Translations under genes and position numbers: made by a program | Source: a virus | Strand: one strand, 5' to 3' | IMG/VR virus record: IMGVR_UViG_3300030116_001845 | Coordinates: 1 to 20,031 of that record | Length of the DNA: 20,031 nt | In this document: one piece after another, positions 14,851 to 20,031 of the stretch | How the letters are laid out: each line of letters starts with the position of its first letter | How positions within the stretch are numbered: position 1 is the first letter of the stretch | The notes under the pieces: model-generated | The model's database searches: none | The model's input: only the letters and a program-made list of their open reading frames with translations | What the model was told of the DNA's origin: nothing

Positions 14851-15198
14851 ATGGATTTTATAGCGTTAATTACTGAGGTAGGATTCCCTATCGCCGCAGC
14901 CGTTGGGCTAGGTATGTTTGTGTGGAAACTTATCAACAGAATCATTGATGGTATGGAATCTAAGATTGATGTCTTAGACGAAAAAGTTGCAGCTCAAGTC
15001 GCTGAGATGGAGAAGCGATTAGACACAAAACTTGACGCACAGATGGGAATTTTAGTCTCTCTAATAGACAGAGTAAGATCTGTTGACAATGAGATAATTA
15101 GACAAGATACCATGATTAAGACTATACTAGGGGTTCCCCATTTGATGCAGTCAGACAGACTGGCTAAAGCAGACAGGGACGATCAGAGAAAAGACTAA
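14851..15198 (+). CDS. Membrane-anchored coiled-coil protein, candidate holin
   Basis: A 115-residue protein with one N-terminal membrane segment (about residues 4-28: IALITEVGFPIAAAVGLGMFVW) followed by a long charged helix with heptad spacing (residues 33-85: ESKIDVLDEKVAAQVAEMEKR). A short membrane anchor with a cytoplasmic coiled coil recalls BhlA/UviB-type holin-like proteins. The position after the tail genes is where lysis genes often lie. No endolysin is visible nearby, so lysis is an inference. It starts 1 nt after the previous stop, and its TAA overlaps the ATG of the csgF-like gene, so it is translationally linked to the curli-type cluster. A role in that cluster cannot be excluded. 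Confidence 0.55.
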   Translation: MDFIALITEVGFPIAAAVGLGMFVWKLINRIIDGMESKIDVLDEKVAAQVAEMEKRLDTKLDAQMGILVSLIDRVRSVDNEIIRQDTMIKTILGVPHLMQSDRLAKADRDDQRKD

Positions 15199-15722
15199 TG
15201 GCGAAGAGAGGCAGACCTAGTAAGAAACAGCTAGAGCAAATTAAGAAAGATAAAGAGAAAACTCTTATCATCAAAATACTATTGGCTATCGGAGCCTTAC
15301 TGTTCATTGGCATTTTCGCGCAGAATGCGATGGCAGATCAGATGGTATATAAATTCAAGTCTCCATCATTTAGTGGTATCAACCAATCAAGCCACTACCT
15401 CACAATAGAAAATCAAGAATTCAATCGCAAGAAAGCGATCAAAGAAGAGATCAAGGCGTATAGAGAACAGCTCAAGCGAGATGAAGAGAATACGACCTTG
15501 GCTAGGTTCTTACGTAACCTAGAGTCTCGCATATATGCACAACTATCGCGCCAGTTGGTAGATCAGTTGTTCGGAGAGAACCCCCAGACTGAGGGCATTC
15601 TTGAACTACTGGGTAACACGATTAGCTACATCGTGGAGGGTGATATGATTACCCTTACCATAACCGATAGTGAAGGCAATGTCACAACGATCTCTTTACC
15701 GCTGGGTTCATTCACGTTTTAG
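15198..15722 (+). CDS. csgF: CsgF-like curli assembly protein
   Basis: A 174-residue protein. In Escherichia coli, CsgF inserts its N-terminus into the CsgG channel and couples export to nucleation of the amyloid fibre at the cell surface. Here residues 23-40 are a hydrophobic signal core with cleavage expected after AMA (residue 46). The mature protein then begins DQMVYKFKSPSFSG (47-60), the counterpart of the E. coli TFQFRNPNFGG segment that binds the pore. A helical region follows (about 97-128, LARFLRNLESRIYAQLSRQLVDQL cut here for length) and a C-terminal beta part (GDMITLTITDSEGN) similar to the family end. Unusually, about 22 basic residues precede the signal core, starting MAKRGRPSKK. 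The 3' end overlaps the next gene. Confidence 0.85.
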   Translation: MAKRGRPSKKQLEQIKKDKEKTLIIKILLAIGALLFIGIFAQNAMADQMVYKFKSPSFSGINQSSHYLTIENQEFNRKKAIKEEIKAYREQLKRDEENTTLARFLRNLESRIYAQLSRQLVDQLFGENPQTEGILELLGNTISYIVEGDMITLTITDSEGNVTTISLPLGSFTF

Positions 15723-16521
15723 TAAAGCCATAGTCGCAGTAGGAGCCTTGCTCCTCAACGGTTGTGCGCTAATGTTTGATCCATTAGATAACAACCTCCC
15801 TCCTATCAAACACATAGAAGCATCCGAGATAGCACCTATCGTTATTCAGGAGCTAGCGGATGTAGGTAAGCCAAAGCAAAGGCCCACAGTCGCAGTTTAC
15901 CCCGATGCCTTTACCGATCAGACAGGCGCTAGGCTCTCTAACGGGCAGTATGCGAGTTTTTCTACAGCCATAACACAAGCACCCTACCTGTACCTAGTAC
16001 GGGCCTTACATCGCGCTGGAGAGACGCATGGAGGGTTCTTCAATGTCGTTGAGCGCATAGGGCTTGATAACCTAACTAAAGAGAGACAACTTATTAGAAA
16101 TACGCGCCAACAGTTTGAAGAAGAACAAGAATTGATGCCCCTAAAGTTCGCAGGTTTGTTAATAAGGGGAAGTGTGGTAGGATATGAAAGTAACGTTTCG
16201 TCAGGAGGCGCAGGTGCGAGGTTCCTGGGGTTGGGTAACTCCAGAGAATACCGGGAAGATGAAGTAATAGTCTCTCTCCGCATTATATCTGTATCTACGG
16301 GTAGCGTATTGTTGGAAGTCCTTGTGACTAAGACGATACTATCAGCGTCAATTTCACAAGATGTATTCCGCTTCATAACGCAGGGAACAGAGCTTGTGGA
16401 GATTGAAGGGGGACTGGTAAGAAACGAATCAGTCAACCTAGCACTACAAGCTGCTATAGAAACTGCGGTATTGCAGCTCATACAGGAAGGCTCCAACAAG
16501 GGATTTTGGAGTATGGAATGA
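15679..16521 (+). CDS. csgG: CsgG-like curli export pore lipoprotein
   Basis: A 280-residue protein if ATG 15679 is used; GTG 15670 in frame is an alternative. A lipoprotein signal ends LLLNGC with lipidated Cys29. CsgG forms a nine-subunit outer-membrane channel for unfolded curlin. Matches to the family are dense: VAVYPDAFTDQTG (71-83), FSTAI (94-98), the helix LVRAL (106-110), VVERIGLDNLTKERQLIR (123-140), GSVVGYESNVSSGGAGAR (164-181), which starts the membrane hairpin, VSLRIISVSTG (198-208), SKTIL-type VTKTIL (216-221), and FRF followed by AIETAVLQLIQEG. Length is close to the E. coli protein (277 with signal). The signal-peptide codons lie inside the end of csgF. Asn55 and Tyr51 of the E. 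coli constriction are not kept (see findings). Confidence 0.93.
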   Translation: MSQRSLYRWVHSRFSKAIVAVGALLLNGCALMFDPLDNNLPPIKHIEASEIAPIVIQELADVGKPKQRPTVAVYPDAFTDQTGARLSNGQYASFSTAITQAPYLYLVRALHRAGETHGGFFNVVERIGLDNLTKERQLIRNTRQQFEEEQELMPLKFAGLLIRGSVVGYESNVSSGGAGARFLGLGNSREYREDEVIVSLRIISVSTGSVLLEVLVTKTILSASISQDVFRFITQGTELVEIEGGLVRNESVNLALQAAIETAVLQLIQEGSNKGFWSME

Positions 16522-17234
16522 TGAGACGTTTAATAATTATCCTGGCGTGTGGATGTTTTCCACTGTCTGTTTACAGCGCAGACAATGAGATCTATATAGA
16601 TCAAGTTGGCGCTACCCTCAACCTTGATGCCGAGCAGCTAGGTAATAGCAATATTATCGGAGGCCTGAATGCCGCTGCAGGCAACATGACACCACTAGAT
16701 CTTGACGGTCTGAATCTTACTATTGACATCAACCAGATTGGTAATTCAAACCAATTTTTGGGCGATATTAACGGAGATAATATTACTTGGGATTCTACCT
16801 TTGATGGAGATTCCAATGTCTTTAAGATCCAGGTAGACCCTACAAATACCTATGGTGCTGACTCTGGTAACTACAATATTGATGTAACAGGCAGCAGTAA
16901 TACCTTTGATCTCAATGTAGGTACGTCAGCATTGTCTGACACCTTGGATCTGGACTGGACGATCATGGGAGACAGCAATGACTTAGACTTTGACATCAAC
17001 TACGAGACAGGCACTTCCTACGTAGACATAGATGGCGACTCAAATACAGTAGATTTTACAGGGTCAGGGAAAGACCAAGGCTATTTCTACTTAGATCAAA
17101 CAGGAGACAGCAGGACGTTCAACATACAACAGAAGAGTACGTTAGTAAGTGATTGGCTTAAGATTATCACTAGCGGTAATGGTGGTACTGTGTGTATCGT
17201 TCAAGACGATAACGGCACCGCTACAGGCTGCTGA
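16518..17234 (+). CDS. Secreted curlin-repeat protein (CsgA/CsgB-like)
   Basis: A 238-residue protein from ATG 16518, which overlaps the csgG stop (ATGA); an ATG at 16521 is also possible. Residues 2-21 form a signal peptide (RRLIIILACGCF core), with cleavage expected near YSA-DNE. The mature part is a run of curlin-type strand-turn-strand units with the core Q-x-G-x-S-N: DQVG (28-31), EQLGNSN (39-45), NQIGNSN (72-78), and Asp-shifted versions DGDSN (96-100), TGSSN (124-128), GDSN (151-154), DGDSN (172-176) and QTGDSR (194-199). It is rich in Asp and poor in basic residues, and ends in a segment with Cys226 and terminal Cys238. It is the expected substrate of the adjacent pore. Whether it is a fibre subunit or a nucleator cannot be told. 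FecR-gene codons overlap its 3' end. Confidence 0.85.
   Translation: MMRRLIIILACGCFPLSVYSADNEIYIDQVGATLNLDAEQLGNSNIIGGLNAAAGNMTPLDLDGLNLTIDINQIGNSNQFLGDINGDNITWDSTFDGDSNVFKIQVDPTNTYGADSGNYNIDVTGSSNTFDLNVGTSALSDTLDLDWTIMGDSNDLDFDINYETGTSYVDIDGDSNTVDFTGSGKDQGYFYLDQTGDSRTFNIQQKSTLVSDWLKIITSGNGGTVCIVQDDNGTATGC
16590..17126 (+). repeat. Curlin-type repeat array
   Basis: Around seven to eight diverged units of about 20-30 residues, each with a G-[NDS]-S-N turn flanked by alternating hydrophobic/polar strands (for example LTIDINQIGNSN, YVDIDGDSN). The first units keep the canonical Gln before the turn; later units have Asp, Thr or Met there. The units are recognisable in protein but poorly conserved in DNA, so they are old rather than recently duplicated. 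Confidence 0.75.
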
Positions 17235-18276
17235 GGATATCGGAGAAGTATCGGAGCTGCGTGGCTCTGCGCGGATCTATCGGGAAGAACCCATAGAGGC
17301 CCTCCTAGAGGTGCCTATACAGCCCTTAGACGATGTTAGAACCAGCAAGGGTAGGTTAGCCATAACGTTCTTAGATGAGACCATAGTGCGTCTTACAGAG
17401 CATTCTAAGCTGATTGTGGATGAATACATCTACTCCAGCAATCCCAGCAACTCTAAACTAGCTATCAACTTTGCCCAAGGCACTGCGCGATTCGTCACAG
17501 GCAAACTAGGGCGCATAGACAAACGCAACATCAAGCTCCGCACACCCTCCGCAGACATAGCTATTCGGGGTACGTCCCTGGCAATCACCGTGACAGAGCT
17601 TGGATCTAGCCTGATTATGCTGCTGCCAGACCCCATAACGGGGTTATCTAGTGGCGAGATTCTAGTATCTACGGCGATGGGAGAGGTGCTGCTCAATAAG
17701 CCATTTGAAGCCACCACTGTAGAAGTCTTTGAAACCACCCCATCTGCACCTGTTATTTTGGATCTAACCCTTGAGCTGATAGACAATATGCTGATTGTCA
17801 GTCCACCAAAGGTCTCGGAGGATTACGCACAGACCGAAAACGCCATACAAGCAGCCGATGACTACCTAGCCTTTGAAGACCTGGACATAGACCTGCTGGC
17901 AGAGGACTTCCTAGATAATGAAGCTGACCTAGACTTTACAGAGCTGGATATAAACTACTTAGATGTGAACTTTTTAGAGGATCTGCTTGAGATCATAGAC
18001 AAGCTAGGTGACATAGAAGAAGAAGACCAGCTAGATCAGGTAGCCACATCCGTAGCAATCAAAGGCACTAAGCTAGGACAAGATGCAGAGACAGGCATCA
18101 TAACCATTGTAGATCAACAGCGTGTCTCGCTCAGAAGACAGGTGGAGGACAGCATACGCTTGGACATAGATGCTGGCGGTAGCTATACAGTCATCTTTAT
18201 ACAAAACGGAATCAGTAGGACGGTCACTGTTAATGGAGGGGGTAGCAGCACCATTCGCATTACCCAAGGGCAATGA
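17149..18276 (+). CDS. Secreted FecR-domain protein
   Basis: A 375-residue protein starting at GTG 17149 (or ATG 17179), 86 nt inside the curlin gene. The overlap encodes a signal peptide (hydrophobic core about residues 5-17, cleavage near LQA-AED at 27), which is why I keep the long start. Residues about 33-150 are a FecR domain: VRTSKGRLAITFLDETIVRLTE, a strand LAINFAQGTARFVTG and the family end motif KLRTPSADIAIRGTSLAI. FecR domains sense periplasmic signals, but the anti-sigma helix and membrane anchor of classical FecR are absent. Residues about 236-294 are a very acidic Leu/Asp-rich stretch, followed by a second beta-rich domain (297-375, SVAIKGTKLG). The stop overlaps the cyclase start (ATGA). 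A sensor partner for the cyclase is the simplest reading. Confidence 0.8.
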   Translation: MIGLRLSLAVMVVLCVSFKTITAPLQAAEDIGEVSELRGSARIYREEPIEALLEVPIQPLDDVRTSKGRLAITFLDETIVRLTEHSKLIVDEYIYSSNPSNSKLAINFAQGTARFVTGKLGRIDKRNIKLRTPSADIAIRGTSLAITVTELGSSLIMLLPDPITGLSSGEILVSTAMGEVLLNKPFEATTVEVFETTPSAPVILDLTLELIDNMLIVSPPKVSEDYAQTENAIQAADDYLAFEDLDIDLLAEDFLDNEADLDFTELDINYLDVNFLEDLLEIIDKLGDIEEEDQLDQVATSVAIKGTKLGQDAETGIITIVDQQRVSLRRQVEDSIRLDIDAGGSYTVIFIQNGISRTVTVNGGGSSTIRITQGQ

Positions 18277-20031
18277 AAAAGATTGTACTGCTCATCATTG
18301 CTGCGCTTGCACTGCCTCTAATTTATCAGGTCAACATCGTAGAGATTATCAAGCTCAGGACGTTTGACGCTTTCATAGAGCCAGTAGAAGAGACTGGCAA
18401 CATTGTTCTACTCAACATCACTGACAAAGATCTACAGGAGTATGGGCAGTGGCCCTGGTCAAGAGAGCAGCTTGGCCTGATACATGTAGATCTACTGAAT
18501 GCAGGAGCTACCTCAGTAAGCTGGGTGGTGTCATTCCCGGAGCCAGATAGGTTTGGTAAAGATGAAGTCTTTGCAGAGGCACTATCCTACTACCCCAGTG
18601 TGCTGGCTATGTTTGAGACAGACACCTGGAACGACATACCCGCAACAGAAGGCACCGTCATATTAGGTGATGAGGTTGGTGGTATAGAAGCGCAAGGGGT
18701 CTTGCAGAACATACCAGCGCTAAGAGACCAAGCATTGCAAGGCATCGTATCAGCCCCGGTAGACGTGGATAACCTGCTACGCAGAATGCCTCTGCTCATG
18801 CGTAGCCCCGATGGTTGGCTTGCAGCGTTTGCCACACAGATGCTCAAGGCAGTCACAGGCACCAATACCTATGTCATCAAGACCAATGAATTAGGCATAG
18901 AAGAGATACGAGTCAAACAGTTAAACCCAATACCTACGGATCAATACGGCAGAGTCTGGATTAACTGGAGTGTTCCACATGGAACATCCTTAGAGGCTAT
19001 GGACGTAGAAGGCAAAATGGTAGTGGTCAACCTTAAAGCGAAAGGTATCCTGCCCATGACAGCTACGCCTGTAGGATTATTAACACCTGCAGAGATCCAA
19101 GCAGCGGTAGCAGAGACGATCATACACGCTTCATCACAGCCGATGCCTGGAATACCAGCGAACAGCCTATTGTATGAATTGCTAATATTTGCAGCAGGAA
19201 CATTAGCAGTATTTATAATGGTAAATCACCTAGGCTTATATCTTGGTCTAGGATTATCACTAGCATCTATGTTAGCAGTCGGTGGTGGTGGTGTGTTTCT
19301 CATCAAGTCGGGCGCATTGATTGATGTAACCTGGACGCTCATATCACAGTTTGTAACCGCCTCCAGCAGCTTCTATATAAGGTTCCGGGAACAGTACAAG
19401 CTGCGCCAACAAATACGCGATCAGTTTGGCACTTACATCTCGCCAGAGTACGTGGACATCATCATCAAGAATCCAGATCTGATGGTCTTAGGTGGACAGA
19501 ATAAAACCATGTCATACCTCTTTAGCGACATAGTGGGCTTTACCCCCATCTCTGAAATGTATATGAAGAACGATGACCCTGAAGGCCTGGTCAGTCTCAT
19601 CAATCATTTCCTAGATGAGATGACCAAAGTGGTGATCGGTAATGGCATGACCCTAGATAAATATATGGGTGACTGCATTATGGCGTGGGCAGGAGCGCCG
19701 ATACCCAGAGAAGACCATGCAATCGTTACAGTTAAGACAGCTATAGAGCTAGAGCTACTATGTCAAAAACTCAATCAAGATCTTAAAGACCAAGGGCTAG
19801 ATCTACCACCAGTGATGTTTGGCTCTGGAATCTCTACAGGGCCAAGTATTGTAGGTAACACCGGGTCATCTATGAGAATGAATTACTCTGTGATCGGTGA
19901 TGCAGTAAATCTAGGCGCAAGGTTAGAGGGAGAAACGAGAAAGCAGGATACCCCAATATTGCTGCCCCAAGCCACCTATGATCTCATACAAAACGAGATA
20001 GCCTGTGTGTATGTAGATAAGATAAAGGTTA
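18273..20031 (+). CDS. CHASE2-domain class III adenylate/guanylate cyclase (3' end outside window)
   Basis: ATG 18273 overlaps the FecR stop; 586 residues are visible and the frame is still open at the end. Layout: a membrane segment (4-19), an extracytoplasmic CHASE2 domain (about 25-290) with LRTFDAF and GQWPWSR (58-64), three membrane segments (about 299-368), a linker (FGTYISPEYV), then a class III cyclase domain. Metal-binding aspartates are D419 (FSDIVGF) and D467 (DKYMGD); K463 fits the purine-contacting Lys; N546 and R550 (GDAVNLGAR) are the transition-state pair. The second purine-specifying position, Asp in class IIIa and Thr in IIIb, is Ser539 (NYSVIGD), which suggests class IIIb and probably cAMP synthesis. 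It is likely to turn an envelope signal, perhaps via the FecR protein, into a cytoplasmic messenger. Confidence 0.9.
   Translation, partial: MKKIVLLIIAALALPLIYQVNIVEIIKLRTFDAFIEPVEETGNIVLLNITDKDLQEYGQWPWSREQLGLIHVDLLNAGATSVSWVVSFPEPDRFGKDEVFAEALSYYPSVLAMFETDTWNDIPATEGTVILGDEVGGIEAQGVLQNIPALRDQALQGIVSAPVDVDNLLRRMPLLMRSPDGWLAAFATQMLKAVTGTNTYVIKTNELGIEEIRVKQLNPIPTDQYGRVWINWSVPHGTSLEAMDVEGKMVVVNLKAKGILPMTATPVGLLTPAEIQAAVAETIIHASSQPMPGIPANSLLYELLIFAAGTLAVFIMVNHLGLYLGLGLSLASMLAVGGGGVFLIKSGALIDVTWTLISQFVTASSSFYIRFREQYKLRQQIRDQFGTYISPEYVDIIIKNPDLMVLGGQNKTMSYLFSDIVGFTPISEMYMKNDDPEGLVSLINHFLDEMTKVVIGNGMTLDKYMGDCIMAWAGAPIPREDHAIVTVKTAIELELLCQKLNQDLKDQGLDLPPVMFGSGISTGPSIVGNTGSSMRMNYSVIGDAVNLGARLEGETRKQDTPILLPQATYDLIQNEIACVYVDKIKV

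Follow-up and report, generated by a model that had tools for sequence, protein, structure and literature searches.

Why would a phage place genes for an exported FecR protein and a membrane-bound CHASE2 cyclase directly behind genes for a curli-type secretion apparatus? The question is raised by the IMG/VR virus record IMGVR_UViG_3300030116_001845, which is 20,031 bp long and is hereafter referred to as the window. Its first 14 kb are the tail block of a long-tailed phage, followed on the same strand by genes for a 115-amino acid protein, CsgF, CsgG, a curlin-like protein, FecR, and a CHASE2-cyclase that is open at the contig end. The original prediction, made from the sequence alone, described the last three genes as a candidate envelope-sensing circuit and as a potentially novel form of host reprogramming. 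The latter claim is weakened. Type VIII secretion system (T8SS) clusters with FecR, a "histidine kinase" and an adenylate cyclase were published in 2022 for pelagiphage podo- and myoviruses, with a regulatory role proposed for them (Wittmers et al. 2022, PMC9599517). The csg part of phage clusters is also discussed by Zaragoza-Solas 2020 (PMC7029224) and Buchholz 2022 (PMC9004378). The curli/FecR/cyclase module was thus already known in outline; the idea of a circuit is plausible. We favor an explanation, to which we give about an even chance of being right, in which the module provides a curli-type apparatus together with a FecR-CHASE2 sensor that sets cyclic AMP (cAMP). Relative to the accessible parts of the published accounts, we add a marine siphovirus lineage as the third carrier of the module, an exchange of catalytic domains under a conserved CHASE2 domain, and the recurrence of FecR-CHASE2 neighbors in bacteria.

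The FecR protein and the CHASE2 cyclase

The FecR gene (17149..18276, + strand) encodes a 375-amino acid protein from a GTG start, which is backed by homologues whose ATG or GTG start codons lie at the corresponding position. The FecR domain (PF04773; 4.8e-10, 40.2 bits against a curated cutoff of 24) covers residues 61-147 and is followed by an acidic middle and a conserved beta-rich C-terminal tail of ~50 residues. Strong hydrophobicity is confined to the N-terminal signal sequence, and past the signal peptide, the protein has no transmembrane helix. FecR-type anti-sigma proteins have a cytoplasmic anti-sigma segment and a transmembrane helix before the FecR domain; here, the signal peptide alone precedes the domain, in agreement with the earlier description of an exported FecR protein devoid of its own transmembrane or anti-sigma part.

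The cyclase gene (18273..20031, + strand, ATG start) encodes 586 amino acids before it is cut by the contig end. Because most homologous cyclases of siphovirus and podovirus-like records have a length of 589-606 amino acids, probably only ~15-20 C-terminal residues are missing. CHASE2 (Pfam 2.1e-30, residues 10-310) and Guanylate_cyc (6.2e-14) domains are present in this one protein, for which we predict a transmembrane helix at ~2-18, CHASE2 at ~35-297, transmembrane helices at 298-319 and 322-345, a helix at 353-385 comprising the last transmembrane segment and the signaling helix, and the catalytic domain at 409-586. In agreement with this map, an AlphaFold2 (AF2) model with a predicted local distance difference test (pLDDT) score of 86.6 shows an N-terminal transmembrane helix followed by a periplasmic CHASE2 and three transmembrane segments, from which an unbroken helix leads to the catalytic domain.

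That the catalytic site is intact, as originally predicted, was borne out: the metal-binding residues D419 and D467, the purine-selecting K463, S539, N546 and R550 are all there. K463 and S539 together match the pattern that an ATP-using class IIIb enzyme should show, and S539 points to ATP as the likely substrate. In searches against structures with hmmsearch and Foldseek, CyaC, CyaB and Cya2 were among the top matches at 34-36% identity, and the modeled catalytic domain has a class III fold with class IIIb cyclases as its nearest solved relatives. The phage enzyme thus resembles CyaC (1WC1) and CyaB (3R5G) in catalytic fold and active-site pattern; it differs in being a membrane protein with CHASE2, where these two have other sensor domains. 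All 15 phage cyclases compared keep D419, K463, D467 and R550, and 13 of them keep N546. The cyclases of Melnitz (L022) and of L020 have a Ser in place of the transition-state residue N546 and an Asp at position 539; such Melnitz-type cyclases may have reduced or altered activity.

Gene overlaps and conservation of the module

The curlin-like, FecR and cyclase frames lie consecutively at 16518-20031, as had been reported, with overlaps of 86 and 4 nt. The longer overlap (17149..17234, + strand) is dual coding: one frame encodes the C terminus of the curlin-like protein, the other the signal peptide of FecR. In 10 of 10 podovirus and siphovirus copies checked, FecR starts at the same position and overlaps the curlin-like gene by 86-92 nt, the start codon being ATG in relatives and GTG in the window and L023; two myoviruses lack this overlap. 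The 4-nt overlap between FecR and cyclase (ATGA) had been taken to imply stoichiometric production. This does not hold generally since the spacing in relatives is -4, -1, 79-101 or 385 nt, and 1305 nt in myoviruses with a second curlin gene in between, arguing that translational coupling of the pair is not conserved. Siphovirus contigs L024, L056, L067 and L094 have small unrelated open reading frames of ~125-157 amino acids inserted between FecR and cyclase.

Gene order is conserved in podovirus-like contigs, myoviruses and the siphovirus lineage, over dozens of viral contigs. The tail protein of the window was found in 80 viral contigs. In many of them, J is followed by the csg-FecR module, and the cyclase comes next in most of those that reach far enough. 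We sampled 25 longer records of the siphovirus lineage and two podovirus-like ones for co-occurrence: of these 27 records, 18 have FecR and 16 have the cyclase, and FecR is present in all 16 cyclase records. No internal stops were found in the cyclase frames of 16 related records, nor any truncation or frame disruption such as had been named as a possible objection. The ratio of nonsynonymous to synonymous substitutions (dN/dS) is roughly 0.1 in close pairs for both genes, and cyclase and FecR are under strong purifying selection. At L019:4457-6248, the cyclase is divided into two frames by a possible frameshift or sequencing error.

A siphovirus lineage as third carrier

The module in the window matches the order of the pelagiphage T8SS/curli clusters (CsgF, CsgG, curlin-like, then FecR with or without cyclase), with a small upstream gene at their "histidine kinase" position; HTVC008M (gp014-gp019) and Melnitz (genes 99-104) have the same module order and are annotated accordingly. 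However, the carrier is not a podo- or myovirus. The window encodes a head-tail adaptor, a neck/tail completion protein, a tail terminator, a major tail protein, a tape measure, a further tail protein and a lambda J-type protein, i.e., a long-tailed lineage with a lambda-like tail. It also differs from HTVC008M and Melnitz in that no second curlin gene separates FecR from the cyclase and that the 86-nt curlin/FecR overlap is present. Neither CHASE2 nor a siphovirus carrier is mentioned in the accessible parts of PMC9599517, PMC7029224 and PMC9004378, and a literature search combining siphovirus and csgG found no paper. Phage curli modules thereby extend to a third, unrelated phage lineage, and the sensor domain omitted by these accounts, as far as they are accessible, now has a name.

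Where their flanks are readable, contigs L002-L019 are of a different phage type; L016 is flanked by ribonucleotide reductase, DNA polymerase I and primase-helicase genes, a content that fits a podovirus. The guanine-plus-cytosine content of the window is 45%, compared to 34-37% in the measured loci of its siphovirus relatives and ~35% in the HTVC008M stretch, which suggests that the window phage infects a different host from its relatives. A host search with the tail protein in 385 Alphaproteobacteria returned distant prophage-like matches alone (identity ≤37%). No integrase was found in 11 records in which it was looked for and, thus, there is no sign of lysogeny in them.

Exchange of the catalytic domain under CHASE2

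The two halves of the cyclase have different nearest relatives. The window CHASE2 is 70-71% identical to that of podovirus-like contigs, while the catalytic domains are only 35-36% identical. By contrast, the catalytic domain is 63-65% identical to that of the siphovirus records G015 and G019, whose CHASE2 domains are 49-51% identical to that of the window. Compared to HTVC008M, the values are 54% for the catalytic domain and 28% for CHASE2, and the myovirus versions of CHASE2 are altogether only 28-29% identical to that of the window. Accordingly, the trees of the two domains disagree, and an approximately unbiased (AU) test rejected forcing the catalytic domain to the CHASE2 grouping (p=5e-4) as well as forcing CHASE2 to the catalytic-domain grouping (p=6e-53). 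These comparisons show that the catalytic domain has been swapped between phage lineages under a conserved CHASE2. The linker shifts together with the catalytic domain, and we infer that the exchange break lies near the last transmembrane/signaling helix. Type A catalytic domains (window, HTVC008M) have Ser and type B domains Thr at position 539, and both keep the active site. Domain exchange in a phage signaling enzyme points to selection acting on the output of the cyclase.

FecR-CHASE2 pairs in bacteria

Is the association of FecR with CHASE2 peculiar to phages? Among the nearest bacterial CHASE2-cyclases with enough upstream sequence, 11 of 71 have FecR directly upstream. In 142 alphaproteobacterial genomes, at least 35 CHASE2 domains among the matches listed have a FecR domain no more than 3.5 kb away, compared to ~0.9 expected under uniform placement with rounded totals, and in at least 21 of these, FecR is upstream on the same strand. 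Together with the 16 of 16 phage cyclase records that have FecR, these numbers uphold the earlier expectation of a nonrandom association. FecR-CHASE2 neighbors are a recurrent bacterial design, usually without curli, and the phage FecR is thereby tied to a widespread arrangement. No FecR-CHASE2 fusion proteins were found among the matches listed in the alphaproteobacterial scan. The bacterial partners include giant adhesins that bear FecR, and FecR proteins with cadherin, Big and laminin-G domains.

Characterized systems offer partial parallels. In Burkholderia contaminans and relatives, the BiofilmReg operon, which encodes a LysM-FecR protein and a CHASE2 histidine kinase, controls biofilm (PMC5192318). 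As in the window, the gene for an exported FecR protein lies just upstream of that for a CHASE2 membrane sensor, and BiofilmReg is connected with biofilm; however, its output is a histidine kinase with a response regulator rather than a cyclase. In Sinorhizobium meliloti, CHASE2 cyclases respond via the outer-membrane barrel NsrA (PMC7529298, PMC13001267), and removal of CHASE2 makes CyaD1 constitutive (PMC5498481). CyaD1, CyaD2 and CyaK resemble the phage enzyme as inner-membrane CHASE2 cyclases and provide evidence for outer-membrane input and for autoinhibition by CHASE2. They differ in having another input protein, no curli genes, a chromosomal location and a plant signal.

A candidate trans-envelope sensor and its alternatives

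In the explanation that we favor, one phage operon would give the infected cell a curli-type secretion and fiber apparatus, consisting of the CsgG pore, CsgF and a curlin-like subunit, together with a trans-envelope reporter. FecR would be exported to the periplasm, bind the surface apparatus or its substrate, and act as the input to the periplasmic CHASE2 of the inner-membrane class IIIb cyclase. The state of CHASE2 would be relayed through the last transmembrane/signaling helix and set the activity of the homodimeric catalytic domain; the resulting cAMP would be sensed by a cAMP receptor of the host and thereby affect surface, biofilm or metabolic programs. The FecR-CHASE2 contact, the signal, the cAMP product and the host effect are steps that we infer. 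Several observations weigh against this explanation. Of 14 bacterial genomes that encode cyclases of this kind, 13 are without CsgG and one has it, and longer regions around the nearest bacterial FecR genes contain a CHASE2 gene in 6 of 20 cases and csgG in none; the rarity of CsgG implies that curli are not the usual signal in these bacteria. The correlation of FecR and CHASE2 distances, given CsgG, is 0.48-0.61, a value from few sequences without a significance value and suggestive only. The AF2 model of FecR has a pLDDT of 38, was not used for fold searches and allows no interface to be examined. No cAMP receptor domain (PF00027) was found in 14 records (HTVC008M, Melnitz and 12 further contigs), so that any cAMP effect would depend on the host. 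Finally, 2 of the 18 FecR-positive records (21 and 48.8 kb) have no detected cyclase; FecR may, therefore, have its own, added role in the curli part.

This last point leads to a different account, possible though doubtful, in which FecR is a working part of the curli apparatus, either as a periplasmic adaptor or chaperone replacing CsgE or CsgC or as a fiber anchor, and the cyclase is separate and optional. FecR indeed goes with CsgG and curlin in records without a detected cyclase as well (G001, G003), a gene for CsgE or CsgC did not turn up in the module of the window, FecR begins inside the curlin gene, and the beta-rich FecR tail has NGG...ITQ features reminiscent of curlin repeats. However, comparison of this tail with the curlin family profile was not significant (hhalign 5%), and we rejected the FecR C terminus as a curlin repeat; moreover, every cyclase-positive record has FecR, and the strongly enriched bacterial pairs mostly occur without curli. 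It is improbable that the cyclase raises host cAMP without a specific periplasmic input, FecR and CHASE2 being baggage from a bacterial source operon. Such a scenario would accommodate the free exchange of the output domain under CHASE2, and a ligand has no direct evidence; nevertheless, both genes are under strong purifying selection, and the CHASE2-FecR pairing is kept in all cyclase-bearing lineages.

We consider it similarly unlikely that the module times lysis, with CsgG and CsgF forming a gated outer-membrane pore and FecR and the cyclase sensing the envelope so that release comes at the right time. For CsgGF of Melnitz, a role like that of a pinholin or secretin has been proposed (Buchholz et al., PMC9004378), our reading of L023 and L028 places the siphovirus module between tail and spanin-like genes, and the 115-amino acid protein is weakly holin-like (E ~0.015). 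Yet conserved curlin-like subunits would be superfluous for a pore alone, the holin similarity is marginal, and the cyclase is without any tie to lysis. Finally, the contig is a fragment with a cyclase that runs off its end, as might be expected of passenger genes without phage function or of an assembly artifact; this we regard as very improbable, since it is contradicted by the 16 records without internal stops, by the low dN/dS, and by the dozens of independent contigs and cultured phages that have the module. Returning to the sensor that we favor, we tentatively put forward a wider proposal, which we think is rather unlikely to hold in full: unrelated phages would circulate a trans-envelope sensor in which exported FecR reports the state of curli to the CHASE2 cyclase, and the output domain would be exchanged according to the cAMP response of the host. 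A compact phage operon with all parts would lend itself to the long-standing question of what CHASE2 senses.

Other genes of the module

The product of the curlin-like gene (16518..17234, + strand) is an exported repeat protein of ~238 amino acids if translation starts at ATG 16518; the mechanical start of the open reading frame is TTG 16506, upstream of this ATG. The label "curlin" survives in part. The GxxN repeat pattern occurs 9 times versus 2.9 expected (P=0.0006), and the homologues in HTVC008M and Melnitz carry a curlin annotation; by contrast, there was no match in Pfam or PDB, and hhalign gave a probability of 7% against CsgA/CsgB of Escherichia coli. Curlin identity is thus likely, based on the repeat pattern and the annotated homologues, without detectable CsgA/CsgB homology.

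Upstream, the 115-amino acid protein (14851..15198, + strand) has one transmembrane helix and a coiled coil according to profile searches and homologues, which sit before csgF in podovirus, myovirus and most siphovirus copies. It contains no kinase domain, and its gene probably occupies the position named "histidine kinase" in the published pelagiphage clusters. In HTVC008M (L021:3845-4407) and Melnitz, small membrane/coiled-coil homologues of ~94-115 amino acids occur as two in tandem before csgF, also without a kinase domain, at the position of the published "histidine kinase, sometimes two". The CsgF homologue, a curli assembly factor of 174 amino acids (15198..15722, + strand), matches Pfam CsgF (1.1e-20) and phrog_35372 (1.9e-41). 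The homologue of the outer-membrane curli secretion channel CsgG (15670..16521, + strand) matches Pfam CsgG (2.1e-45), is 44% identical to CsgG of HTVC008M and, as read from its sequence, has a lipoprotein-type N terminus (LLLNGC). In the cyclase-less loci L023:13809-14601 and L028:17256-18045, two small proteins are encoded after FecR, a membrane protein and then a lipoprotein, which on inspection of their sequences resemble an inner/outer spanin pair.

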